Source: an uncultured Bacteroidales bacterium (GTDB taxonomy: Bacteria; Bacteroidota; Bacteroidia; Bacteroidales; UBA4417). From it: DNA of 33,943 nucleotides. Below are positions 6,329 through 32,187 of this stretch, piece by piece; within the stretch, counting starts at the first letter, position 1, and each line of letters begins with the position of its first letter. The position numbers and the translations under genes were made by a program. A model generated the notes under the pieces. The model did no database searches. It saw only the letters and a program-made list of their open reading frames with translations, and was not told the origin of the DNA. The stretch covers positions 1-33,943 of the forward strand of contig CAIRHD010000521.1 in assembly GCA_903878265.1 (NCBI GenBank), given 5' to 3'.

Positions 6329-7168
6329 TCAATACTCGTCAGGCAATTGCTTTAGCTGTGTTCTTGTAAAAACTGGGCCATCCTTGCAAACAAATACCTT
6401 GCCTACATTGCAGCGGCCACATTTGCCAAGGCCACATTTCATACGGTTTTCGAGGGTGGTATATACCTGATCATCGGCAAAACCATATTTTTCAAGTACC
6501 GGAAAAGTAAATTTTATCATTACCGGTGGACCGCAAACTATGGCGATTGTATTCTCGCTTACTGGTTTTATCCTGTCCAGAATCGTTGGAACGAAACCAA
6601 TTTCTCCTTTCCAGTCCGGGGTTTCCCCACCAGGATCCACGGTTGTAACCAGTTTTACATCAGGGCGTTCTTTCCATTCGGCAAGTTCGTTTTTATACAC
6701 AAGATCAGCAACCGAACGAGCACCATAAAGGATGGTTATATCTTTAAACTGATCCCTTTTATCGAGGCACGACCAAATAACGCTGCGCATGGGCGGTAAT
6801 GCAATACCACCGGCAATAAAAATCAGGTTTTTGCCCTTCCATTCGTCAATTGGGAAGATATTGCCATATGGCCCACGAAAACCGATGGTATCACCTTCGT
6901 TCAGGCTGGCTAGTTCGGTTGTTACCCTTCCTGCTTCCCTGAAAGTACATTCTATATATCCTTTCCGGGTATGAGGCGATGCAACGCAAAAGGTAACTTC
7001 GCCTTCGCCAAAAACCGAATATTCGCCAAACTGTCCGGTGTGGAAAGCAAAATTATTCCCTTCTTCTTCGTTGGCAAATTTCAACCTGAATGTTTTGACC
7101 ATGGGAGCCTCCTCGGTAATCTTTTCGATTTGCATGAGGTAAGGCTGGTAAATATTCTGTTGATACAT
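6329..7168 (-). CDS. flxA: FAD/NAD(P)-binding oxidoreductase with 2Fe-2S cluster (FlxA-like)
   Basis: The 279-residue protein belongs to the ferredoxin-reductase/PyrK/AsrB superfamily. An N-terminal FAD-binding barrel is followed by a nucleotide-binding domain with IAGGIALPPMRS (118-129) and the conserved CGPPVMIKF (212-220). The C-terminus holds a cysteine cluster (C245, C250, C253, C261) fitting a PyrK-type [2Fe-2S] site. It is the expected NAD(H) entry point of the complex, passing electrons to the Fe-S proteins and HdrA. It is last in the minus-strand operon. It is separated from flxB by a 364-nt gap filled with repeats, unlike the other junctions, which are nearly gapless. Expression may therefore be partly uncoupled. 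The name is assigned from gene order plus family. Confidence 0.82.
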   Translation of the reverse strand: MYQQNIYQPYLMQIEKITEEAPMVKTFRLKFANEEEGNNFAFHTGQFGEYSVFGEGEVTFCVASPHTRKGYIECTFREAGRVTTELASLNEGDTIGFRGPYGNIFPIDEWKGKNLIFIAGGIALPPMRSVIWSCLDKRDQFKDITILYGARSVADLVYKNELAEWKERPDVKLVTTVDPGGETPDWKGEIGFVPTILDRIKPVSENTIAIVCGPPVMIKFTFPVLEKYGFADDQVYTTLENRMKCGLGKCGRCNVGKVFVCKDGPVFTRTQLKQLPDEY

Positions 7169-7200
7169 GTTTTTATATGCTGATTATTATGTGTTTAGAT

Positions 7201-7530
7201 GTTCAATTGCTTCGCGTTCAAGGGTTCAATTGCTTCGCGTTCAAGGATTCAAAAAGCTGGCCACTGAGCCTGTCGAAGTGCGTGTTCAAGGTTCAAAAAG
7301 CTGGCCACTGAGCCTGTCGAAGTGCGCGTTGAAGGTTTATGTTCAATTGTTGATTTGTTCAATTGTTCCTGAGCCTTTTTCCAAACCACATTTACTTTTT
7401 CTCATTTCCTAATCCCCACATCTTCAAATCCCCACATCTTCAAATCCTCAAATCCCCACATCTTCAAATCCTCAAATCCCCAAATCCTCAAATCCTCAAA
7501 TCCCCACATTTTCAAATTATCGCATTATCG
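7201..7530. repeat. Repeat-filled gap inside the hdr-flx operon
   Basis: Between flxB and flxA there are three repeat blocks and no coding signal. A 23-bp exact tandem pair (gttcaattgcttcgcgttca + agg) occupies 7201-7223 and 7224-7246. A 35-bp exact direct pair, 7248-7282 and 7292-7326, contains CTGAGCCTGTCGAAGTG, a word I recall as a frequent intergenic repeat in Bacteroidetes. From about 7410 to 7515 there is a run of TCAAATCC/CCCACATCT words. No terminator hairpin with a U tract and no TAnnTTTG box was found on the minus strand here. Confidence 0.85.
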
Positions 7531-7532
7531 CA

Positions 7533-8558
7533 TTAAACAATTGCCCCTATCGAAGTTAAATGTTCTTTAATATTCATATCAACCGGACAAGCGCGTGAAC
7601 ATCGTCCACAACCTTCGCAGCCAACAACATGGAGTTGCTCCGGCATATAAGCGAATTTGTGCAGGATACGCTGCCTCCAACGCTGGCTTTGTACTTCGCG
7701 AGGGTTATGGCCAGAAGTATGAAGGGTAAACAACGAGAATCCGCAGGAATCCCAAAGACGGAGACGAACACCCTTCTTAGTATTCTGCTCATCCTGAAAA
7801 TCGAAACAGGCGCAAGTAGGGCAAACAAAAGCACAGGCACCACAACCGATACACCGCAAAGATTGGTCGAGCCAAAGCGCTGCATTGTTAAACGAAGCCG
7901 TTGTTTTTTTAACAACACCGTCCACATCAAATACAACCTTAACATCTGCCAAGAACTTGGATTTGTCAATGCCACTACCAGCAACGCTAAGTAAATCGGC
8001 AAATAATGCAGATAGTTTTGTGCCTTTTTCAGTCAGGATTTCGACAAGGATTTCATCTTTGCTTATGCCAGTAAACTGTAAATCACTGCCTGTTGTATTG
8101 CCTGGCCCACCTCCAACAGAAGTACAGAAGCAATATTCATCAGCAACTGGGCACGAAAAAGAAATTATTGTTGATTTTGCCTTTTTCTGCAGATAAAACT
8201 GGTCCTTGGGTTCTTCACCAAAAATAGCATCAAGCGATTTAAACCCTGAAGCATCGCAGGGCCTGACCCCAAAAAGGATAGTTTCCTGGAAAGAGTCAAG
8301 ATCAACCGGCTGTTGTGTTACTCCGGATTTGGCCAAGGTATAATCAAGCACTTTTTCCACTTTGGGGAAAGCTGCTTTTTTTGCCGATTGCGTTGAAAGC
8401 AATACATCCAATGCGATTTCGTCAATCGTTTGAACCTGCTCTATCTCCACAACCTTTCCTTTGCGAACGGGCGCCAACACAGGAAAACCCTGCGACCGGA
8501 ACCGTTCAATTAATTTTGGAAGGTCGCTGTATTTAAGTATTTTTAGTTCTTTCTCCAT
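7533..8558 (-). CDS. flxB: Fe-S electron-transfer subunit, AsrA/HydB-like (FlxB-like)
   Basis: The 341-residue protein resembles the 4Fe-4S subunit family of anaerobic sulfite reductase A and sulfhydrogenase beta. It has an N-terminal domain with GVRPCDASGF (97-106) and CPVADEYCFC (136-145). Two [4Fe-4S] motifs lie in the C-terminal part: C236/C239/C242/C246 and C314/C317/C320/C324, both ending in CP. Such proteins pair with FAD/NAD proteins of the FlxA/AsrB type, matching its neighbour. The start is 5 nt after the flxC stop. It probably relays electrons between FlxA and the Hdr module. The B/C naming follows the mirrored gene order and is less certain than the family call. Confidence 0.8.
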   Translation of the reverse strand: MEKELKILKYSDLPKLIERFRSQGFPVLAPVRKGKVVEIEQVQTIDEIALDVLLSTQSAKKAAFPKVEKVLDYTLAKSGVTQQPVDLDSFQETILFGVRPCDASGFKSLDAIFGEEPKDQFYLQKKAKSTIISFSCPVADEYCFCTSVGGGPGNTTGSDLQFTGISKDEILVEILTEKGTKLSALFADLLSVAGSGIDKSKFLADVKVVFDVDGVVKKTTASFNNAALWLDQSLRCIGCGACAFVCPTCACFDFQDEQNTKKGVRLRLWDSCGFSLFTLHTSGHNPREVQSQRWRQRILHKFAYMPEQLHVVGCEGCGRCSRACPVDMNIKEHLTSIGAIV

Positions 8559-8563
8559 GGCTA

Positions 8564-9367
8564 TCAGATAATGAAGTTCTCTTTATCATCAGGTTTGTAA
8601 GTGGAAAGCGCATACGTAGCATCGGCTTTCATACCGGCTGTGGCGCCAAATGTTTCCTTTATAGGGCTTATCAGTTGGTATGTTAGCAGGTTTAGCGGAA
8701 TATCCATCGGGCAGGCGGTGGCACATTCGCCACAGTTAACACATCGTCCGGCAAGGTGCATTGCACGCATCAGGTGGTAATCGAGGTTTCCCCGCTCGTG
8801 GCTTGCAACCGGAATCCATTGAGGTTGGTTAACATCGGTTGTACAACGATGGCAGTAGCACATTGGGCAGGCTGCACGACAAGCGTAACATTTAATGCAC
8901 TTTTCAAATTCCTTGTTCCAGAAAAGCCACCTTTCGTTGTTCGACATAGCTTCTAAACTGGCAATACGTTCCTGCTCTTCTGCTTTAATTCCGGTATCGG
9001 TGGTTTGTAGATAAGCTTCAATCGAATGAAAATCGTTGAATTCTACAAATGTGCCATCCGGATTGGCAAACAAAACATAAACTTCCCCATCCTTGATCTG
9101 GAATTCAGAAGCAAGTTGCATTATGCTCCGCAAGGCTGCCACATTGGCCAGAATCCCGAGCTTGCCGAAATGTTTAACTTCATGTTTCAGCAAATAACCT
9201 GCAAGGTTTTGTGTACATGAAGCGTCGAAAAACACTTTATTCGCTTGCGCTTCATTCCGGGCAAAACATGCCCTGATGCGGTCGGCCGAACCTTTTTCGT
9301 AACCGACAAATACATTGATGGTTTTATCGTTCAGTAAGGCTTTTACTTTTTTTATCAGTTCACTCAT
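8564..9367 (-). CDS. flxC: 4Fe-4S dicluster electron-transfer subunit (FlxC-like)
   Basis: The ATG at 9367 (MSELIKKVKA...) gives 267 residues. It overlaps the flxD stop by 8 nt, the usual coupled arrangement. A longer frame to 9406 lies inside flxD and is less likely. The N-terminal ~145 residues carry no motif I recognise. The C-terminal part has two [4Fe-4S] sites: C157/C160/C163/C167 and C209/C212/C215/C219. Extra cysteines C170, C172 and C175 directly follow the first site. The protein is soluble and probably links FlxB and FlxD/HdrA in the electron path. Confidence 0.8.
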   Translation of the reverse strand: MSELIKKVKALLNDKTINVFVGYEKGSADRIRACFARNEAQANKVFFDASCTQNLAGYLLKHEVKHFGKLGILANVAALRSIMQLASEFQIKDGEVYVLFANPDGTFVEFNDFHSIEAYLQTTDTGIKAEEQERIASLEAMSNNERWLFWNKEFEKCIKCYACRAACPMCYCHRCTTDVNQPQWIPVASHERGNLDYHLMRAMHLAGRCVNCGECATACPMDIPLNLLTYQLISPIKETFGATAGMKADATYALSTYKPDDKENFII

Positions 9368-9818
9368 TGCTTGCACCCTCCTCGTTAAATAAAGTGGAAA
9401 CGGCAATCTTTTTATAATTCTCGTAAGGACCTATTTCCTTGATTTTTTTTACGGTATTATTCACAACATCTGCCCATTTGAATCCTTCGGCTGCCGATAC
9501 CCAACTAAATTGGATGCGCTCTGTATCAATTCCAGTAAAATTCAGGAGGTTACGAAATACAATCCACCTACGACGAGCATGAAAATTACCTGTGCTGTAG
9601 TGGCAATCGTTTGGATGGCAACCGGAAACAATGATTCCATCGGCTCCATTTTCAAATGCTTTCATCAGGATCATAAAATCAATGCGCCCGGTACACGGGA
9701 AGCGGATGATTTTTACATTGGCCGAATACTTTATACGGCTTGTACCTGTGAGGTCGGCACCGGCATAGGTACACCAGTTGCATACAAACGCCACAATTTT
9801 TGGTTCAAATTCCTGCAT
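9360..9818 (-). CDS. flxD: MvhD/FlxD-type 2Fe-2S protein (hydrogenase iron-sulfur subunit family)
   Basis: The 152-residue protein is an MvhD family member. In methanogens MvhD wires the Mvh hydrogenase to HdrA. In Desulfovibrio the homologue FlxD wires FlxABC to HdrA. The conserved cysteines are C13 and C16 (FVCNWC), C42 (FPCTGR), and C67 and C72 (GCHPNDC). The motif CHYSTGN and the following RR are also typical. The gene lies 12 nt after hdrA and overlaps flxC by 8 nt. Its place between hdrA and the flx genes is what the electron-bridging role predicts. Confidence 0.88.
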   Translation of the reverse strand: MQEFEPKIVAFVCNWCTYAGADLTGTSRIKYSANVKIIRFPCTGRIDFMILMKAFENGADGIIVSGCHPNDCHYSTGNFHARRRWIVFRNLLNFTGIDTERIQFSWVSAAEGFKWADVVNNTVKKIKEIGPYENYKKIAVSTLFNEEGASNE

Positions 9819-9830
9819 TCCTCTATGCTA

Positions 9831-11831
9831 TTAATCGTTTAACAAAGCCATTATTTCTGTATAAACCTGTTGGTTAGAGTATCCATGTATGTCGATTGCT
9901 TTTGTACGGCAAAGGGCAACACAAGTTCCGCAACCTTGACAAAGACCTTCATTTACCCTGGCGAGGGTTTTGATAACTTCACCATTCCTATTTTTGATTT
10001 CTTCGCGTTCGATGGCCTGATATGGGCAAACACTCTGGCAAAGGAAACAACCAACGCATGTTGAGAAAACCGGTGCTGGCTGACGGTTGACAAGTGCAAC
10101 CAATGGATCGCGGGTGAGTTCGTCGTTGCTGAACAAAGCTGCAACTTTTACGGCTGCACCCGATGCAGCGGCAACTGATTCTGGAATATCCTTTGGTGCC
10201 TGGCATGCTCCTGCAAGGAAAATACCGGCAGTGTTGGTTTCAACTGGTTTAAGTTTAGGATGCGCCTCGGCAAAGAACTTATATGAATCGTAGGATACAT
10301 GCACCGTTTGGGCCAGTTCCTCAGCACCCTTATTAGCGACTCCGGCTGTGGCAAGTACAACCATATCTGCTTCTATTTCAATAGGAATTCCTCCCATAAG
10401 CGTGTCGGCACCTCTAACGATCAACTTGCCATTTTTTTCATAAATGGTCGAAACACGGCCTCTTACGTAGTGGGTTCCATCTTCAACAATGGTGCGGCGC
10501 ACAAATTCTTCATACATCTTTCCACCGGCACGTATGTCCATATAGAAAACGTAAGGAGTTCCATCATGAACCTTATGTTTATATAACATTGCATGTTTTG
10601 CCGTGTACATGCAGCATATTTTTGAGCAATATTCTATTCCCTTTGCGGGATCGCGGGAACCGGCACATGCTACGAAAACGATTTTTTTAGGCTCTTTCCC
10701 ATCCGAAGGCCTACGGATTTGACCCTGGGTTGGGCCAGATGCAGAAGCCAGACGTTCGAACTGAAGTCCATCAATCACATCTTTGTATTTTCCATAGCCA
10801 TATTCAGGGAAAAAATCTGGTTGCAAAACATCGAAACCTGTTGCAAGAACGATGGCTCCAACGGCTACCTCAACTATTTCATCTTCCTGATCAAAACGTA
10901 TTGCCTTGGTTGGACAAACAATTTCGCAAACCTTACATTTACCCTTAATATAATAGGTGCAATTTTCGCGGTCAATTACTGGTTTATTAGGAACTGCCTG
11001 TGGAAAAGGCACATAAATGGCCGGACGGAAACCCAAACCACGTTCAAATTCATTAGGGATTTTCTTTTGAGGACATTTTGTAGTACAAAGTCCACAACCT
11101 GTGCAAAGATGTTCGTCGAGACTTTTGGATTTCTTACGGATTTTAACTTTGAAATTTCCAATAAAACCATCCACAACCTCAACTTCGGAGTATGTGTGAA
11201 GAGTAATATTAGGATGCTGTGCAACTTCCACCATCCGTGGTGTTAATATACATTGCGAGCAATCGAGGGTTGGGAATGTTTCGGATAATTGCGACATGTG
11301 GCCACCAATCGATGGTTGTTTTTCGACCATTATCACCTTGTGCCCACAATTTGCAATATCGAGTGCAGCCTGAATCCCTGCAATACCGCCACCAATGACA
11401 AGCGCAGTTTTTGTAACCGGAACTTTAATGGAATTGAGTGCTTTGTTCTTTTTTACTTTCTCAACCATTACCCGCACTAAATCCTGGGCTTTTTCGGTCG
11501 TCAAATCATCTTTGGGGTGAACCCACGAACAATGCTCGCGGATGTTCGACATTTCGCAAAGAAAAGGGTTCAGCCCGGCTTCTGCACAGGCTTTCCTGAA
11601 CGTTGGCTCGTGCATACGTGGCGAGCAGGCAGCAACAACAACCCCATCGAGCTTGTGTTCCTTAATGGCTTCTTTCAACAAAGTCTGGCCTGGGTCGGAA
11701 CACATATATTTATAATCGGTGCTAAATTCGACACCTTTGAGTTCACCTGTTATTTTGGCTACTTTTTCGCAATTTACCGTGGCTGAAATATTTTCACCGC
11801 AGTGACAAACAAAAACTCCTATCCGCGACAT
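9831..11831 (-). CDS. hdrA: HdrA-like FAD/Fe-S subunit (electron-bifurcating flavoprotein)
   Basis: HdrA carries the FAD thought to split electron pairs between ferredoxin and the HdrB site. The 666-residue product is full length. The N-terminal Cys-containing domain includes FVCHCGEN (7-14) and VAACSPRMHEPTFR. The FAD-binding Rossmann motif is GGGIAG (147-152), followed by GGHMSQLSETFPTLDCSQC (176-194). An inserted ferredoxin pair has cysteines C243-C253 and C291-C306. A C-terminal diferredoxin has C592/C595/C598/C602 and C631/C634/C637/C641; its last motif ends CR rather than CP. The gene starts 2 nt after the hdrB stop. The physiological disulfide or thiol partner is not coded in this window. 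Confidence 0.92.
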   Translation of the reverse strand: MSRIGVFVCHCGENISATVNCEKVAKITGELKGVEFSTDYKYMCSDPGQTLLKEAIKEHKLDGVVVAACSPRMHEPTFRKACAEAGLNPFLCEMSNIREHCSWVHPKDDLTTEKAQDLVRVMVEKVKKNKALNSIKVPVTKTALVIGGGIAGIQAALDIANCGHKVIMVEKQPSIGGHMSQLSETFPTLDCSQCILTPRMVEVAQHPNITLHTYSEVEVVDGFIGNFKVKIRKKSKSLDEHLCTGCGLCTTKCPQKKIPNEFERGLGFRPAIYVPFPQAVPNKPVIDRENCTYYIKGKCKVCEIVCPTKAIRFDQEDEIVEVAVGAIVLATGFDVLQPDFFPEYGYGKYKDVIDGLQFERLASASGPTQGQIRRPSDGKEPKKIVFVACAGSRDPAKGIEYCSKICCMYTAKHAMLYKHKVHDGTPYVFYMDIRAGGKMYEEFVRRTIVEDGTHYVRGRVSTIYEKNGKLIVRGADTLMGGIPIEIEADMVVLATAGVANKGAEELAQTVHVSYDSYKFFAEAHPKLKPVETNTAGIFLAGACQAPKDIPESVAAASGAAVKVAALFSNDELTRDPLVALVNRQPAPVFSTCVGCFLCQSVCPYQAIEREEIKNRNGEVIKTLARVNEGLCQGCGTCVALCRTKAIDIHGYSNQQVYTEIMALLND

Positions 11832-11833
11832 AG

Positions 11834-12751
11834 TTAAGCCTCCAATTTTTGAGTGTTAACAACTTTTTTAGGTTCCTTGGCTACCGGAATTTCCCTGACA
11901 GGTTTTACAGGAAGGTTCACTTCTGTCATGTGGCGGTTCAACCCAAGTGTTTTGGCATCAAGACCAACTGCAAGGCCAAGCACCTGCGAAATATACAATA
12001 TGGGAATGTCAATCTTTTCGTTCAGGAATTTATTGATTTCCGGGCGGCGCATATCGAGGTTCGAGTGGCACATGGGGCAAGCAACCACAACCACCTCGGC
12101 GGCGCGGTCAACAGCATCTTTCATAATATTGCCCGATAACCTGGCAACTGTATCGGTGCGCGAAACCGACATCCCAGCCCCACAACATTCCGTTTTATAT
12201 GCCCAATCTATTGCATCACCGCCTGCTTTTTTCACCAGTACATCCATGCTTTGCGGATCCTCTACCCTATCGAATTTCAGGATTGAATGAGGCCGAACCA
12301 ACAGGCAGCCATAATAACAGGCAGCTTTATAATCGAAAGGTTTAACAACTTTCTCTTCCAGCCTGTCGGTAATATATTTGTCGATAAACTGTATAATGTT
12401 AAGGATTTGCGTTGTGCCTTCGTATTTTAGATCGATGATGGAAGCTACCCTTGTGCTCAGTGATTTATCAGCTTCAAGTTCATGCTTTACAATTGAAAGC
12501 CTGTTGTAGCAAGCAGCACACGGAACCACAATATCGCTAATCCCTTCCCTTTCGGCAAGGGCCATGATACGGGCGGGCAAACTCAACGACAATTCTTTAT
12601 TGAGGTTATGTGCAGCAGTAGCCCCACAACAATTCCAATCCGGAATTTCGACAAGCTCAATATCAAATACTTTAGCCAAAGCTGACACAGATTCCTGGTA
12701 TTCGCGGGCTCCGCCTTTCATGGAGCAGCCCGGATAAAAACCTACTTTCAT
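11834..12751 (-). CDS. hdrB: HdrB-like subunit with two CCG domains
   Basis: HdrB holds the active site that reduces a heterodisulfide in methanogens, using non-cubane [4Fe-4S] clusters bound by CCG motifs. Both CCG motifs are intact in this 305-residue protein: C9, C41-C42, C78, C81 and C145/C149, C189-C190, C225, C228. This argues for a catalytically competent protein. Bacteroidota have no CoM-S-S-CoB, so the natural substrate must be another disulfide or thiol carrier. In Desulfovibrio the proposed partner is DsrC; none is seen here. The ATG overlaps the hdrC stop by 4 nt (ATGA). Confidence 0.92.
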   Translation of the reverse strand: MKVGFYPGCSMKGGAREYQESVSALAKVFDIELVEIPDWNCCGATAAHNLNKELSLSLPARIMALAEREGISDIVVPCAACYNRLSIVKHELEADKSLSTRVASIIDLKYEGTTQILNIIQFIDKYITDRLEEKVVKPFDYKAACYYGCLLVRPHSILKFDRVEDPQSMDVLVKKAGGDAIDWAYKTECCGAGMSVSRTDTVARLSGNIMKDAVDRAAEVVVVACPMCHSNLDMRRPEINKFLNEKIDIPILYISQVLGLAVGLDAKTLGLNRHMTEVNLPVKPVREIPVAKEPKKVVNTQKLEA

Positions 12752-13326
12752 AGTTTTCCCTCCTTTTTATCCTGTATTTTGTTAAAAATAGCAGCTATCT
12801 TTTTTCTTCCCTTTATAAATTCAGGAACAGGGTTTAATTTACCTTTTACAAACATTTTTGGCGCAATGGCAACATCCTGCATCATCGCCCCGGTCCTCAT
12901 TTTATAATCTACTATCAACCCCATTTCGTAAAGCCGACCGGTATAATTGATGGAATCGAGGAACGACTTATGGAAAGCAATAATCTTTTTCGCTTGTGGA
13001 TTAGTCTTTTTTGCCCTGTAGGATTTCTGCCTCATGTAATCCATCAACGATGGTATATCTATTTCCATCGGGCAACGTGTGAGGCACATTTCGCAACTAA
13101 CACAAAGCCAAATTGTCATTGATTTCAGCAGCTTTTCCACATGAAGTGGATCCTCGGTTTGCAACATGCGCATCACCAGGCTTGGAGGGTATTCCATTTC
13201 GGTGGCTACCGGACAACCGGCGGAACATTTGCCGCATTGGTAGCATTTGTTTATTATCACACCTGTGTCCCTGCGAATTTCATCGTTCAGGGTGAGTGGG
13301 TGAATATGTTCATGGGAAGCGGACAT
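12748..13326 (-). CDS. hdrC: HdrC-like 4Fe-4S subunit
   Basis: The 192-residue protein has two classical [4Fe-4S] motifs: C28/C31/C34/C38 and C75/C78/C81/C85. Helical segments around them are typical of HdrC (SLVMRMLQTEDP, WLCVSCEMC). HdrC passes electrons between HdrA and HdrB. No membrane segments (HdrE/DsrM type) are present, so the complex is soluble. It is the first gene of the seven-gene minus-strand operon. A TACTTTTG box on the minus strand (13522-13529), about 195 nt upstream, is a possible promoter. Confidence 0.9.
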   Translation of the reverse strand: MSASHEHIHPLTLNDEIRRDTGVIINKCYQCGKCSAGCPVATEMEYPPSLVMRMLQTEDPLHVEKLLKSMTIWLCVSCEMCLTRCPMEIDIPSLMDYMRQKSYRAKKTNPQAKKIIAFHKSFLDSINYTGRLYEMGLIVDYKMRTGAMMQDVAIAPKMFVKGKLNPVPEFIKGRKKIAAIFNKIQDKKEGKL

Positions 13327-13970
13327 AGGGCTATTTTACCTTTATTTTAAACATATTATTTATCTCGCTGATCCTAATTTCTCAATTACACAATGATGAT
13401 TGGTTTTTTGATTTAGGTATTTTAGCAAAGTCATTACTATCCTTTATCGCTAAAAAACCTCATTAAAAACATTAAATCATTGGCCGTGTTTTGAGGGTTT
13501 CATTGTTATTTAATTCACAGGCAAAAGTAACTTATTCAGTATTCCAAATATGAAATTTTGTAATTTATAATGTTTTTAAATAAGACAGGATAAATATCCT
13601 TGCTGAGGCTTGCGCCAAATGGTTTATATGTTGATGGAATGCCCAGCCTAAAAGGATTTTCGGCAGTGTACGTTAGAAAAGAATAAGTCAGGAAAAATAT
13701 TAAATGCAGCCTCCACTTTTTTTTGCAGACCCAAAAAATGTTGGATTTGCCCCAAAAGGAGAGTCGATTTTGATTAAAGACCACTGCTTCTTTTAACTTT
13801 TAGGGTGTAAAAAGTGCCAGCGAAGTTCAAGTCTTGAGCCTGATAATCCGAGCAAAAAGTTCTTCGCTCGCACAAGTCCTCCCTATTTTCATGCGTATGG
13901 AAATGCAAATTTGGATAAGCAATACAAAAACCTGGTTTGTTCAAATACCAATAACAGAATTTGTCCGCAA
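13327..13970. other. Upstream region of hdrC; no supported gene
   Basis: The stretch holds no convincing gene. A minus-strand frame at 13536-13784 (82 codons) has low-complexity, aromatic-rich content and no recognisable start context. Its last ~45 residues look protein-like, so a gene remnant is possible. On the minus strand TACTTTTG (13522-13529), with a TTTG at 13545-13548 only 15 nt farther upstream, is a weak candidate hdrC promoter. Positions ~13930-13970 match, with changes, the segment just before the third long hairpin (20719-20756). Confidence 0.5.
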
Positions 13971-14005
13971 TATTCAGGGTTTCACTTTGAGTGAAGCCCT
14001 GAATA
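13971..14005. repeat. 35-bp long hairpin, copy 1 (left of array 1)
   Basis: Arms TATTCAGGGTTTCACT and AGTGAAGCCCTGAATA pair over 16 bp with one G-T wobble and a 3-nt TTG loop. An identical copy ends the same array at 14387-14421, and a diverged copy follows array 2 at 20757-20791. No U tract follows, so it is not a simple terminator. Confidence 0.9.
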
Positions 14006-14010
14006 TATCC

Positions 14011-14379
14011 AAACTTGGTTTGCCTCTGCCCAGCTTGGGCAAGCCCCCCTGAAACTTGGTTTTCCTCTGCCCAGATTGGGCAAGCTCGCCTGAAACTTAG
14101 TTTTCCTCTGCCCAGATTGGGCAAGCTCGCCTGAAACTTGGTTTGCCTCTGCCCAGCTTGGGCAAGCTCGCCTGAAACTTGGTTTGCCTCTGCCCAGCTT
14201 GGGCAAGCCCGCCTGAAGCTTAATTTGCCTCTGCCCAGCTTGGGCAAGCCTGCCTGAAACTCAGTTTGCCTTTGCCCAGCTTGGGCAAGGCTGCCCGAAA
14301 CTTGGTTTGCCTCTGCCCAGCTTGGGCAAGCCCGCCTGAAACCTGGTTTGCCTCTGCCCAGCTTGGGCAAGCCTGCCTG
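14011..14379. repeat. Array 1: nine 41-bp double-hairpin tandem repeats
   Basis: Nine units repeat with an exact 41-bp period and no indels; hairpin cores run from 14028 to 14356 in steps of 41. Each unit has a core TGCCCA-nnn-TGGGCA hairpin and a second AAAC-nnn-GTTT hairpin. Differences between units fall mostly in the loops (GCT/GAT; TTG/TTA/TCA/CTG) or in the linker. Because 41 is not a multiple of 3 and the unit lacks stops, long frames run through it on the minus strand. They are judged artefacts. A long hairpin sits on each side. Confidence 0.95.
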
Positions 14380-19604: not shown

Positions 19605-19761
19605 TTTATGAATCAAAGAAAATCGTAACATGCCCTGCAATCTTATGAATCCTTAGCTCAGGTGCATCTTACATTCAGTTGTGCCTGGCAGATAATACAA
19701 ATAAGGCAAAGACTTAATAATAATAAATCTAACCAAATACCTGTAGACATCTACTCGCCTA

Positions 19762-20721
19762 AAACTTAGTTTGCCCCTGCCCAGCTTGGGCAAGCCCGCC
19801 TGAAACCCAGTTTGCCTCTGCTCAGCTTGGGCAAACCCACCTGAAACTTAATTTGCCTCTGCCCAGCTTGGGCAAGCCCGCCTGAAACTTGGTTTGCCCC
19901 TGCCCAGCTTGGGCAAGGCTGCCTGAAACTCAGTTTGCCTCTGCCCAGCTTGGGCAAACCCGCCTGAAACTTAATTTGCCTCTGCCCAGCTTGGGCAAGC
20001 CTGCCTGAAACTTGGTTTGCCTCTGCCCAGCTTGGGCAAGCCCGCCTGAAACTCAGTTTGCCTCTGCCCAGCTTGGGCAAGCCTGCCTGAAACTTAGTTT
20101 GCCTCTGCCCAGCTTGGGCAAGCCTGCCTGAAACTTGGTTTACCCAATTCCTAATTGGGATTTGCTGTTTTTTTTTTAGTTTGCCCAATACCCAGTTGGG
20201 AATTGCCCGCCTGAAACTTGGTTTGCCCAATACCCAGTTGGGATTTGCTGTTTTTTTTCCGGTTTGCCCAATTCCCAGTTGGGATTTGCTTGCCTGAAAC
20301 TTGGTTTGACCAAAACCCAGTTGGGATTTGCTGTTTTTTTTCCGGTTTACCCAATTCCCAGTTGGGATTTGCTTGCCAGAAACTTGGTTTGCCCAATTCC
20401 CAGTTGGGATTTGCCGTTTATTTTTCAGTTTGCCTAAATACCAGTTGGGATTTGCTTGCCAGAAACTTGGTTTGCCCAATTCCCAGTTGGGATTTGCCGT
20501 TTTTTTTCTGGTTTGCCCAAAACCCAGTTGGGATTTGCTTGCCTGAAACTTGGTTTGCCCAATTCCCAGTTGGGATTTGCTGTTTTTTTTCCGGTTTGCC
20601 CAATTCCCAGTTGGGATTTGCTTGCCTGAAACTTAGTTTGCCTCTGCCCAGCTTGGGCAAGCTCACCTGAAACCTGGTTTGCCTCTGCCCAACTTGGGCA
20701 AGCTTGCCTGAAATTTAGTTT
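19762..20721. repeat. Array 2: mixed array of 41-bp (A) and 83-bp composite (B) hairpin repeats
   Basis: The array starts with nine A units of exactly 41 bp, like array 1 (19762-20130). Six B composites of exactly 83 bp follow (20142-20639, each 41 + 42 bp). Two more A units (20640-20721) end it. B halves have the core CCCAATT-CCC-AGTTGGG. Alternating halves end in TGCTGTTTTTTTTCCGGTTT or in TTGCTTGCCTGAAACTTGGT + TT. The period is kept without indels throughout. Open frames through it on both strands are repeat artefacts. Confidence 0.95.
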
Positions 20722-20756
20722 GTACAAATACGAACAAAAGAATTGCTTATCCGCAA

Positions 20757-26874: not shown

Positions 26875-28299
26875 CTACAGCAAATGCGACTTATCATTGT
26901 AGGTTGTATGAAGGTATTTTTTTGATTTGGCACTGCCAACCTGACCCAGGAAATATGTGTAAGCGGCTTTAATCTCTGGGTTTTCGTGGCAGTAGCGTGA
27001 GGATGCTTTTATATCAGCACTGTTCAGCGAACTGATGCGTTTTTCTATTTTGCTACTGCCAGCAGGTTGTCCTGCACCTCCAACACAGCCTCCTTTGCAG
27101 GCCATCACTTCAACAAAATCGTATTTGCATGTTCCGTTTATCACTTGGTTGAGCAGCACCTTAGCATTTCGCATCTCGTAACACACTGCCACATTGAGAG
27201 TGGTTAATCCTATGGCCACTTTGGCTTCCTTTAAACCTGTTAAACCTTGCACCTGCTTTAATTCCATAAGGTTTCCAGCCGCATTGGCACCGGTAATATT
27301 GAAATAGGCAGTACGAAGGGCTGCCCGCATTACACCACCTGTGTTGCCGAAAATAATCCCCGCTCCGGATGCTGCACTCATAAGCGAGTCGAAATTCCCG
27401 GTTTGAGCCGTTAAACTGACTTTGCGGTTCTTCATCATTTTGGCCAGCTCGCGGGTTGTAATCACGATGTCAGTTCCTCTCAAGCCATCGGTAACAAGTT
27501 CATCCCTGGTTATTTCATATTTTTTAGCTGAACATGGTGTAATGGCAACATGAACTATATTGCGGGGGTTGATGCCCATCTTTTCGGCAAAATAACTTTT
27601 GACAAGGGAACCTTGCATGGCAATGGGGCTTCTGACTGAAGATAAATTACCAAGCAGCGATGGATAATAAATCTCTACATACTTAACCCAAGCAGGACAA
27701 CAACTTGTAAATTGAGGCATATCGGTTTTTTGCTCTATCCGTTTCTGTAGTTCGCCAGCCTCTTCCATAATCGTAAGATCGGCACTGAAATTAGTGTCCA
27801 ATACATAGTCGAAGCCAACAGCACGGCAGGCACCAACCATGTTTCCCACAAGGTAACTGCCGGCAGCCATATCAAAGTAATCGCCAATTGCAACCCGCAC
27901 CGATGGCGATACAGAGGCAATAACGATTTTCGAAGGGTCATCTATGGCCGCTAAAACATCCTGCCAATGGTACTTTTCGGTTAATGCTTTTTCCTCACAT
28001 TCAATTATACAGGATCCGCAATGTATGCAAACATGTTTTGAAGAACTGGCCAGATACGTTCCAAAAACGGTTTGTTTTGTTGCACAAGCCTCAATGCAAT
28101 CACCGCACTCTTCGCACTTTTTCTTCCAAAATGCTATAGCCGGATTATCATCCTGAATAGGCAAATATTCCAACTCCTGATTGCAATGTCCATCAAAAGT
28201 ATCTTTGGCGCATGCCATTAACATACTGGCTCCAACAATCACAGTTGCATTGTAGGCAACAAGATTCCCAATAAACTTTCGTCGGTTTACCTTACCCAT
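26875..28299 (-). CDS. [FeFe]-hydrogenase-like protein with twin-arginine/lipoprotein N-terminus
   Basis: The 474-residue protein has all three H-cluster signatures. FTSCCPAW (197-204) supplies the relay Cys200 and ligand Cys201, ITPCSAKKYE (253-262) supplies C256, and EVMACKGGCVGGAGQP (397-412) supplies C401 and C405. The second motif reads TPC where most catalytic enzymes read MPC. Two ferredoxin motifs, C62-C72 and C91-C101, are followed by A or E instead of the usual P. The N-terminus NRRKFIG plus a hydrophobic stretch ending SMLMAC (Cys30) looks like a Tat signal with a lipobox, so the folded enzyme may be exported and lipid-anchored. No HydE/F/G maturases are in the window. It could evolve or oxidise H2, or be a sensory homologue. 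Confidence 0.85.
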   Translation of the reverse strand: MGKVNRRKFIGNLVAYNATVIVGASMLMACAKDTFDGHCNQELEYLPIQDDNPAIAFWKKKCEECGDCIEACATKQTVFGTYLASSSKHVCIHCGSCIIECEEKALTEKYHWQDVLAAIDDPSKIVIASVSPSVRVAIGDYFDMAAGSYLVGNMVGACRAVGFDYVLDTNFSADLTIMEEAGELQKRIEQKTDMPQFTSCCPAWVKYVEIYYPSLLGNLSSVRSPIAMQGSLVKSYFAEKMGINPRNIVHVAITPCSAKKYEITRDELVTDGLRGTDIVITTRELAKMMKNRKVSLTAQTGNFDSLMSAASGAGIIFGNTGGVMRAALRTAYFNITGANAAGNLMELKQVQGLTGLKEAKVAIGLTTLNVAVCYEMRNAKVLLNQVINGTCKYDFVEVMACKGGCVGGAGQPAGSSKIEKRISSLNSADIKASSRYCHENPEIKAAYTYFLGQVGSAKSKKYLHTTYNDKSHLL

Positions 28300-30983: not shown

Positions 30984-31397
30984 TTATTCCGCAATCAAAT
31001 CCCTCAACGTTGTCTGAGCCAGTTTATCGTAAGTATAATCGCGGATATCCTTAAACACTTTGCGTAAATTGCATTTTGCTTCGTCCTTGCAAAATTCACA
31101 GGGCTGGTAAGCTTTTTCCGAAACACAAGGTACAAGTGCAATCGGCCCTTCGAAATGGCGGACAACTTCTGAAAGGTTGATGTCTTCTGGTTTCCGGATC
31201 AGGTAATATCCACCTGATTTGCCAAGCTTGCTGCCAAGCATCCCTAATTTCTTTAAATCTAGCAAAATAGCTTCCAAATACCGTTGCGGGATATTCTCGC
31301 TGCGGGCAATATCGCCGATCAGTATTGCTCCATTTCCAACTTCCCTGGCCAATCGTGTGAGAGCCAGCATTGCATATCGTGTTTTTTGTGAAAGCAT
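30984..31397 (-). CDS. Rrf2-family transcriptional regulator with C-terminal cysteine cluster
   Basis: The ATG at 31397 (MLSQKTRYAMLALTRLA) is the standard Rrf2 start; a longer frame adds 18 unlike residues. The product is 137 residues. The winged helix-turn-helix lies at about 22-62 (LIGDIARSENIPQRYLEAIL, KSGGYYL). Cysteines C91, C100, C103 and C109 form a cluster like the Fe-S-binding loops of IscR, NsrR and RsrR. A [2Fe-2S] or [4Fe-4S] cluster sensing Fe-S status, NO or redox state is expected, but the exact type cannot be read. An inverted repeat just upstream (31403-31413) could be an autoregulatory operator. The FNR-like gene is 91 nt upstream on the same strand. Confidence 0.85.
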   Translation of the reverse strand: MLSQKTRYAMLALTRLAREVGNGAILIGDIARSENIPQRYLEAILLDLKKLGMLGSKLGKSGGYYLIRKPEDINLSEVVRHFEGPIALVPCVSEKAYQPCEFCKDEAKCNLRKVFKDIRDYTYDKLAQTTLRDLIAE

Positions 31398-31402
31398 AAT
31401 GT

Positions 31403-31413
31403 AAACAATGTTT
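31403..31413. promoter_or_regulatory. Possible operator upstream of the Rrf2 gene
   Basis: AAACAATGTTT is a perfect 11-bp palindrome (AAACA/TGTTT around one base), 6 nt upstream of the Rrf2 ATG. A self-regulatory site is a guess from position only. Confidence 0.25.
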
Positions 31414-31440
31414 GTAAAAAAAAATCTTTTTCTTGAAAAC

Positions 31441-31479
31441 ACTTTAGGCACTCAAGGCACTTCAAGTACTTTAGGCACT
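31441..31479. repeat. ACTTTAGGCACT repeat words
   Basis: ACTTTAGGCACT occurs at 31441-31452 and 31468-31479, separated by the related caaggcacttcaagt. The same word is found at 26786-26797 and, inverted, at 26599-26628. Confidence 0.75.
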
Positions 31480-31488
31480 TTCCTCCAC

Positions 31489-32187
31489 CTAACCGTGTTT
31501 GCTGATTTCGACAAGCTTATTATAATTCTTGATTTCGAGCACTTTGCCCTCAAAAGATATAATCCCTTCTTTGTTCATTTTCGATAGCGTTGTTATCACG
31601 TTTTCGTGGGAACAAGCTGCAAATTCCGAAATTTCTTTTTTCGTAAACGAAATGGTAAACTTGTGGCTTTTATAAACTTGATCAGCCAAATACAATATAA
31701 TGTCGGCAATGCGGCCATGCACCTGTTTATGTGCTAGGCTGATAAAGTTAAATATTGCCGATTTGAACATTTCTGTCGATTCCTCAAACATCGTTATCGC
31801 ATACTTTCCGTTATTCATCAACAGTTTTTTCATCGCTTTGCTGTCGATAAGGCAGGCTTCACATTCCTCCAAAGCAATAAGCGAAAAAAGGTTTATTTCC
31901 TTGAAAAATAGGTTTGCACCGCCCAACAATATCGGTCCTGTTACTATGGTAAGGATAACACTTTTCCCTGCTTCGCTCTCAAAATTGAATTTTACGATTC
32001 CTTTGTGGAGATAAACAAGGTTTGATGCTTTTGCACCCTGCTTTAAGATGGTTTCCCCTTTTTTGAACGACAGTTGTTGCGATGTCCTCCTGATAAGTTC
32101 GAATTCTTCGGGTGCGATATTCCTGCAACTCAACGTCCTGAAAGTACATTGGTTGCAGTCGTAGCGGCTGTGGCGGCTGTCGGGCAT
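31489..32187 (-). CDS. Crp/Fnr-family regulator with FNR-like cysteines
   Basis: The 232-residue protein has a cyclic-nucleotide-binding-type beta-roll (about 35-115), a dimer helix and a C-terminal winged HTH (FTKKEISEFAACSHENVITTLSKM). The N-terminus has C11-x2-C14-x6-C21, followed by candidates for a fourth ligand, C109 or C112 (ALEECEAC). This is close to E. coli FNR (C20, C23, C29, C122), so an O2- or NO-sensitive [4Fe-4S] cluster is likely. Spacing differs by one residue, so this remains inference. It is upstream of the Rrf2 gene, and together they could control the anaerobic redox genes nearby. Confidence 0.85.
   Translation of the reverse strand: MPDSRHSRYDCNQCTFRTLSCRNIAPEEFELIRRTSQQLSFKKGETILKQGAKASNLVYLHKGIVKFNFESEAGKSVILTIVTGPILLGGANLFFKEINLFSLIALEECEACLIDSKAMKKLLMNNGKYAITMFEESTEMFKSAIFNFISLAHKQVHGRIADIILYLADQVYKSHKFTISFTKKEISEFAACSHENVITTLSKMNKEGIISFEGKVLEIKNYNKLVEISKHG

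Follow-up and report, generated by a model that had tools for sequence, protein, structure and literature searches.

An FlxABCD-HdrABC complex was reportedly described in Desulfovibrio vulgaris by Ramos et al. in 2015, and it provides the reference for the operon considered here, a set of seven hdr and flx genes at positions 6329-13326 of a 33,943-bp stretch of DNA from an uncultured Bacteroidales bacterium. This stretch (the window) is the entire contig C521 of a draft genome of 629 contigs and 5.78 Mb, which is 95.5% complete and 0.7% contaminated. The D. vulgaris genes carry the locus tags 2399 (FlxA), 2400 (FlxB), 2401 (FlxCD), 2402 (HdrA), 2403 (HdrB), 2404 (HdrC) and 2405 (Adh1) in PMC10920352, which cites a paper whose title names a direct interaction of DsrC with the complex (Ferreira et al., 2023). 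In the HdrCBA-MvhD-MetVF complex of Moorella and Sporomusa, the flavoprotein MetF takes the place of the disulfide, an association established by pull-down (PMC9430772). A headless 11-subunit NDH-1 is known from Bacteroidetes (PMC6560451); ferredoxin has already been proposed as the donor of headless complexes (PMC6338057, PMC13391211), which may couple with a complex encoded elsewhere (PMC5736913).

Hdr-Flx is widespread in anaerobes, and DsrC is the sole partner named in the portions of the literature that we searched. A second question is where the headless complex I of Bacteroidetes obtains its electrons. We find that the operon in the window is intact, that its genome contains no recognizable DsrC, and that the hdr and flx genes are linked in many relatives to a gene for a dihydroorotate-dehydrogenase-like flavoprotein (DHODL) of a distinctive long form and in some to genes for a complex I without NADH head. 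We suggest that FlxABCD-HdrABC bifurcates electrons from NADH, with ferredoxin passing to headless complex I, long-form DHODL on the other branch, and no involvement of DsrC; we put the probability of this reading at roughly 40%. The listings and excerpts searched contained no description of a link between Hdr-Flx and either DHODL or headless complex I.

An intact operon in the standard gene order

Seven open reading frames (ORFs) fill the interval on the minus strand, transcribed in the order hdrC-hdrB-hdrA-flxD-flxC-flxB-flxA. HdrC (12748-13326, 192 aa) has the pattern CxxCxxCxxxC twice, corresponding to two [4Fe-4S] motifs (Pfam Fer4_8, 44 bits), and HdrB (11834-12751, 305 aa), the subunit of the catalytic non-cubane cluster, has two CCG domains (Pfam). 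HdrA (9831-11831, 666 aa) combines FAD and ferredoxin domains (Pfam). FlxD (9360-9818, 152 aa) belongs to the MvhD/FlpD family (PF02662, 169 bits), FlxC (8564-9367, 267 aa) is a dicluster iron-sulfur protein matching Pfam Fer4 families, and FlxB (7533-8558, 341 aa) is a 4Fe-4S protein like the sulfhydrogenase beta subunit (Fer4_22). FlxA (6329-7168, 279 aa) carries NAD(P)H and FAD domains (Pfam NAD_binding_1, DHODB_Fe-S_bind and FAD_binding_6), with an iron-sulfur domain of the PyrK type. The start of flxC is the ATG at 9367, common to relatives in the alignment; the TTG of the ORF list, at 9406, lies 13 codons earlier. From hdrC to flxA the successive spacings are a 4-bp overlap, 2 bp, 12 bp, an 8-bp overlap, 5 bp and 364 bp. 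The first six genes therefore overlap or lie at most 12 bp apart, and flxA is set off by a gap (7169-7532) that consists largely of tandem repeats, with units of 23, 44 and 24 bp at 7201-7517. The flxB-flxA distance in relatives of the same genus ranges from an overlap up to 254 bp, and gaps of about 195-222 bp separate hdrA from flxD in two genomes, G013 and G002 (G, C, L and f are our handles for genomes, contigs, loci and families).

HdrA aligns over residues 3-665 with chain A of 5odc (706 bits), which we take to be the methanogen MvhADG-HdrABC complex of Methanothermococcus thermolithotrophicus. HdrB scores 132 bits over residues 1-273 against 9sfi_C, and 9sfi_C and 5odc_B both give 130-132 bits; FlxA and FlxB match the gamma (9nez_C, 206 bits) and beta (9nez_B, 125 bits) subunits of sulfhydrogenase, and the C-terminal part of FlxC resembles a formate dehydrogenase (F420) beta subunit (82 bits). 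The eight cysteines of HdrC are kept in 81/81 or 82/82 rows. For HdrB, conservation was counted on 63 Flx-linked rows drawn from a 150-row alignment with other homologues: C9, C41, C42, C78, C81, C149, C189, C190 and C228 are kept in 60/60 or 63/63 of the rows that have the column, and C225 in 62/63. All ten non-cubane ligands are intact in this operon, forming two complete CCG motifs, and the cluster-ligand cysteines of the remaining subunits, those of the HdrA ferredoxin clusters included, are intact in the alignments. E359 and K412 of HdrA align with E356 and K409 of 5odc_A, a pair described for the M. thermolithotrophicus protein as a conserved signature of bifurcating HdrA (PMC9430772). 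Because these ligands and motifs are intact, as judged by Pfam, structure alignments and cysteine conservation, the first-pass annotation of this DNA was right to report a complete seven-gene cluster in a Bacteroidota genome with intact CCG, FAD and ferredoxin motifs, to which the E/K pair can now be added. Its expectation of an active complex also stands: to judge from its sequence, the operon encodes a complete and apparently functional complex.

The nearest named relatives by FlxC (78-96% identity; L038, L039, L040 and L049, among the best 80 of at least 557 places) are metagenome-assembled genomes (MAGs) of Bacteroidetes or Bacteroidales. Within the genus, HdrB is present in 13 of 16 genomes (16 of all 41 genomes searched at E <= 1e-20). 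The order of the seven genes holds over whatever part of the cluster a contig covers, and five genomes, that of the window included, hold all seven genes whole on one contig. Subunits found in genus relatives are about 78-99% identical.

The wider comparison began from a FlxC alignment scan of one genome per species across 84,980 species, which yielded at least 557 confirmed places, and the best 80, named as loci, were examined with models of all seven subunits. The gene order of the operon recurs in 73 of these 80 (38 in full, 19 as a contiguous part and 16 with a fused HdrC-HdrB-sized ORF), while 7 differ. By the numbering of its locus tags D. vulgaris, too, has this linear order, strand having no part in that comparison. 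The inverted or "mirror" order that the first-pass annotation had singled out is thus the standard one, and can be dismissed as a special trait. Nor is the cluster exceptional in Bacteroidota. The best 80 loci include Planctomycetes, Ignavibacteria, Chlorobi, Geobacter relatives and Bacteroides, and named holders of the whole cluster include Bacteroides cellulosilyticus, B. oleiciplenus and Segatella paludivivens. The order was sampled with 295 genomes: an HdrA match (E <= 1e-100) is present in 76, and it reaches at least 68% identity over nearly full length in 27 of them, which we call Flx-type. FlxC was searched for in 26 of the Flx-type genomes and in one further genome (G326), and is present in 26 of the 27 so searched, all but G326. 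As an operon, then, the cluster belongs to a known kind, an intact member of the FlxABCD-HdrABC group in standard order.

Some variants were encountered in the same material. Two Anaerolineae loci (L063 and L082) have doubled hdrC and hdrB, with an extra upstream HdrC-HdrB-sized ORF of 485-492 aa. G112:C716, G216:C89 and G104:C179 encode further HdrA-like proteins, whose open frames span about 1030 residues, with 42-44% identity across the flavin part. In L032 (G027, of the same order), hdrCBA-mvhD is followed by the small and large subunits of a [NiFe] hydrogenase, a hydrogen-linked, methanogen-like layout; this hydrogenase is VhuA-like but below the NCBIfam cut-off. The subunit models found no flxA in the Azobacteroides locus.

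The window's own genome contains no match to the DsrC family (PF04358), although the Escherichia coli control was positive. The Desulfovibrio partner is therefore not available, and DsrC is rejected as the partner in this genome unless its gene falls in the few percent that the assembly lacks. The earlier statement that neither dsrC nor an alcohol dehydrogenase lies nearby also held, none being found among the 29 window ORFs scanned with Pfam; MetV and MetF are equally missing from these ORFs, the rest of the genome not having been searched for alcohol dehydrogenase, MetV or MetF. MvhA and MvhG hydrogenase domains are absent from the seven operon proteins (Pfam). Elsewhere, DsrC occurs in one of the 16 genus genomes (G001, where the match, L037, ends ...PKPASCI with a single cysteine ahead of the stop) and in 11 of 50 named Flx genomes, leaving 39 without it; of the 20 Bacteroidota in that set, 3 have it. 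These 50 were taken from the 80 loci, of which 28 were left out.

Long-form DHODL and headless complex I beside hdr and flx genes in relatives

The first-pass annotation had also suggested collecting the genes that flank related clusters. Our census of 662 ORFs within 7 kb of the loci (L021 and the duplicate records L038-L040 dropped) revealed no general partner conserved across all loci, the largest clusters being Chlorobi neighbours, but a single DHODL cluster flanks six Bacteroidota loci (L027, L028, L046, L047, L048 and L049). DHODL matches NF005741 (PRK07565) with 402 bits against a cut-off of 303. In L046 and L047 it immediately precedes hdrC on the same strand; it is convergent with flxA in L028 and L048, and lies one or two ORFs off in L027 and L049. 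The gene rows read DHODL-hdrCBA-flxDCBA in L046 and L047 (= L143) and hdrCBA-flxDCBA-DHODL-nuo in L142.

DHODL occurs in a long and a short form, which differ by about 17-20 extra residues around positions 64-86, an insert that brings no extra cysteines. The long forms make up one clade (support 0.94), from which the short forms are separate. In the genus, all 13 Flx-positive genomes carry the long form, 74-92% identical to the query (the window's own genome being the query, at 100%), whereas the three Flx-negative genomes carry only short forms of 45-52% identity and none has the long form; G007 has both. In the window's genome the gene lies on another contig (C116:5626-6660), where its neighbour is a divergent tatA-like/OmpA/AIRS block. 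That block is found, again divergent, beside hdrC in G013, G002, G008 and G007, and beside DHODL in G001, an arrangement suggesting that DHODL and hdr-flx used to lie side by side and became separated in the line of the window.

A similar association is seen in the order sample, where long-form DHODL (more than 375 bits) was counted among the matches listed, so that a low-scoring fragment could have escaped. Some DHODL is present in 236 of the 295 genomes (E <= 1e-50), and the long form in 14 of them, the insert being seen in all 14. Thirteen of these have HdrA at least 68% identical, and the fourteenth (G326, 79% complete) has a DHODL-hdrC-hdrB row at a contig end. The association of the long form with Hdr gives a Fisher P of 1.3e-16 in a table that counts 28 Hdr-positive genomes, is not corrected for kinship, and omits from the Flx-type class four genomes with HdrA about 58% identical (G021, G165, G264 and G348). 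None of these four is among the 14 long-form genomes listed, and G021 holds the whole cluster (L031). Within families f13, f63, f64 and f120, members that differ in Hdr-Flx differ in the long form in the same direction, again among the matches listed. In G290 HdrA pairs with an Ignavibacteria HdrA (support 1.0), yet long-form DHODL is present. Of the 50 named Flx genomes, 6 have the long form (insert checked), and in a 395-genome sample of the phylum, where Hdr was not searched for, it was found only in the window's own genome (E <= 1e-105).

The catalytic cysteine of dihydroorotate dehydrogenase sits in the loop after the motif ELN, and 1jqx shows ELNLSCPN at the corresponding position. None of 52 DHODL rows has a cysteine in the nine columns from the ELN loop onward. 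By this criterion of sequence DHODL is not a true dihydroorotate dehydrogenase, while sharing its fold class. A structural model (A3, from a four-row alignment) has a predicted local distance difference test score of 72 and a predicted template-modelling (TM) score of 0.75, and its best PDB matches are dihydropyrimidine and dihydroorotate dehydrogenases at a TM score of about 0.6; such middling values therefore speak to fold class only.

Complex I genes show a comparable linkage. In 6 of the 26 FlxC-positive genomes of the order, from families f70, f95, f13 and f43, nuo genes adjoin hdr or flx in three co-directional arrangements, and no nuoEFG was seen in these adjoining sets. In G134, G290 and G310, nuoA follows flxA on the same strand within about 210 bp (in G134 flxA appears as two overlapping ORFs, and the filter did not call flxD). 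The order in G193 is hdrCBA-flxDCBA-DHODL-nuoA. In G159, nuoA, B, C, D, H, I, J, K, L, M and N lie between hdrA and flxD; Pfam confirms NuoA, B, C, D, H, J, K, L and N, NuoI was placed by similarity (the G260 copy was Pfam-scanned), and NuoM by size and position. G260 apparently has the same arrangement, but split over two contigs. Moreover, nuo is divergent from hdrC in two fen MAGs (L044 and L071) and from DHODL in G271 and G104.

Proposed electron flow and competing explanations

We considered how these associations might translate into a path for electrons. NADH would enter a cytoplasmic FlxABCD-HdrABC complex at FlxA, and FlxB, FlxC and FlxD would relay the electrons to the HdrA FAD. There they would be split between ferredoxin and a second branch running through HdrC to the non-cubane clusters of HdrB, which in this lineage would serve no DsrC. 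Long-form DHODL, in contact with HdrB, would most likely serve the high-potential branch in this genome and in a large subset of Bacteroidales more widely, on the model of MetF serving HdrCBA-MvhD in acetogens, and the reduced ferredoxin would most likely feed a complex I without NADH head. For the window's own genome, the link to complex I is one we infer from relatives. DHODL could instead partner FlxA, which is PyrK-like; the layouts of G159 and G260 do not decide. The possibility raised by the first-pass annotation, of a new carrier or a different electron acceptor, is not proven, but candidates have emerged in long-form DHODL and, as a ferredoxin sink, headless complex I.

Several observations weigh against this proposal. 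Of the 27 Flx-type genomes in the order sample, 14 lack the long form (among the matches listed), as do 44 of the 50 named Flx genomes, including Bacteroides, Segatella and Geobacter relatives; not every such complex can depend on DHODL. In the window's genome DHODL (C116) and the 11-subunit nuo set (C186) are on other contigs than the operon. Of 42 of these genomes, 39 have NADH-head type proteins (PF10589), so complex I could draw electrons from them; in G159 such a gene lies some 6.5 kb away from flxA on the opposite strand. In G013, G002 and G006, DHODL lies on the same contig as, and within about 16 kb of, a nuo set that has NuoF. As a control for adjacency, 19 short-form neighbourhoods contained no Hdr gene, and two had weak FlxA-like reductases (L176, 70 bits; L158, 58 bits) below the 90-bit cut; the control is weak, because only five of these neighbourhoods (G102, G122, G231, G259 and G310) lie in Flx-positive genomes and are informative. 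Finally, adjacency is not interaction, and sequence gives no direction of flow.

The alternative that survives best keeps the disulfide: Hdr-Flx would bifurcate electrons from NADH, one branch reducing ferredoxin and the other a disulfide, be it of a small thiol or of some protein that is not DsrC. DHODL and complex I would be linked to it only because all three work in anaerobic redox metabolism and pass down together. HdrB retains the ten non-cubane ligands of disulfide-reducing HdrB, and the Flx-type genomes without the long form are readily accommodated. Taken alone, however, this explanation does not account for the co-occurrence of Hdr with the long form in 14 of 14 listed genomes of the order and in 13/13 against 0/3 in the genus, or for rows in which DHODL is directly beside hdrC or flxA; we regard it as a real possibility that falls short of even odds. 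A second alternative is confurcation, in which oxidoreductases or a complex I running in reverse would reduce ferredoxin, and this together with a reduced partner would yield NADH. This direction is assumed for D. vulgaris during fermentation (PMC10920352), is compatible with DHODL as the partner, and fits the nuo linkage as well as the forward direction does; with the sequence giving no evidence for either, we consider it somewhat unlikely. That DsrC is the partner, as in D. vulgaris, is very improbable here: its presence in G001 and in some named Flx genomes is outweighed by its absence from the window's genome and from 14 other genomes of the genus. An assembly artefact or decayed operon, which the many contigs of the draft and the repeats within the operon might invite, has next to no chance, since it is refuted by conservation across the genus.

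A broader version of the bifurcation proposal is that Hdr-Flx, long-form DHODL and headless complex I form one DsrC-free respiratory system in many anaerobic Bacteroidales, in which DHODL, with an unsaturated substrate or carrier, would replace the disulfide as acceptor and ferredoxin would drive an ion-pumping complex I. We hold this to be doubtful. If correct, it would give Hdr-Flx a partner in organisms that lack DsrC, and would also show from where the headless complex I of the phylum draws its electrons. Should DHODL be the acceptor, Hdr modules with an NADH head would do something other than disulfide reduction, and a bifurcation step would have to enter the redox balance of many environmental Bacteroidales. 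The associations themselves tie the two questions, of the Hdr-Flx partner and of the complex I donor, to one gene set in one bacterial order, and they name one uncharacterised flavoprotein as a candidate to test. The question of the partner was a good one to raise, and comparison yields testable candidates for it.

The rest of the window and relation to known systems

Outside the operon, the window encodes on the minus strand a group A [FeFe] hydrogenase with fused small subunit (26875-28299; TIGR02512 at 420 bits, over the cut-off, with PF02906 and PF02256), which matches chains of periplasmic [Fe] hydrogenase among others. Its N-terminus (NRRKFI...MLMAC) reads by eye as a twin-arginine and lipoprotein signal, and the enzyme is putatively exported. 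Upstream of this gene lie adjacent genes for regulators of the Rrf2 (30984-31451) and Crp (31489-32187) families. Two repeat arrays, built from similar 41-bp units that contain the inner palindrome GCCCAGCTTGGGC, occupy 14011-14379, with 9 copies, and 19756-20722, with more; the ORF at 13774-14370 is at least partly translated repeat array. Tandem repeats with units of 11, 33 and 78 bp close the contig (33569-33943) and may account for the end of the assembly there. Rfam and tRNA scans of the window gave no match.

Compared with FlxABCD-HdrABC of D. vulgaris, the operon has the same functional units in the same linear order. FlxC and FlxD, fused as FlxCD in that organism, are separate proteins here. 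D. vulgaris has a DsrC partner and a neighbouring Adh, whereas here the genome lacks the former and the window ORFs the latter; unlike the D. vulgaris system, the window's genome has a long-form DHODL elsewhere. The methanogen MvhADG-HdrABC complex has a homologous HdrA, an HdrB with the same ligands, and in MvhD a family member of FlxD; it has MvhA and MvhG, of which the operon has neither. Long-form DHODL exceeds the NF005741 cut-off and differs from the rest of that family by its extra residues.

The headless NDH-1 of Bacteroidetes corresponds to the in-operon nuo set of G159, which likewise comprises nuoA-D and nuoH-N and no EFG; in the window's genome, unlike G159, nuo and Hdr-Flx are unlinked. 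The closest working model for an Hdr-DHODL pair is HdrCBA-MvhD-MetVF, with which it shares HdrCBA, a protein of the MvhD/FlxD kind and a flavoprotein on the exergonic side. DHODL, unlike MetF, is of the dihydroorotate dehydrogenase class; MetF is also a TIM barrel. The Moorella and Sporomusa association was found by pull-down and that of Hdr with DHODL by genomic linkage, and the system described here adds the Flx module for NADH.

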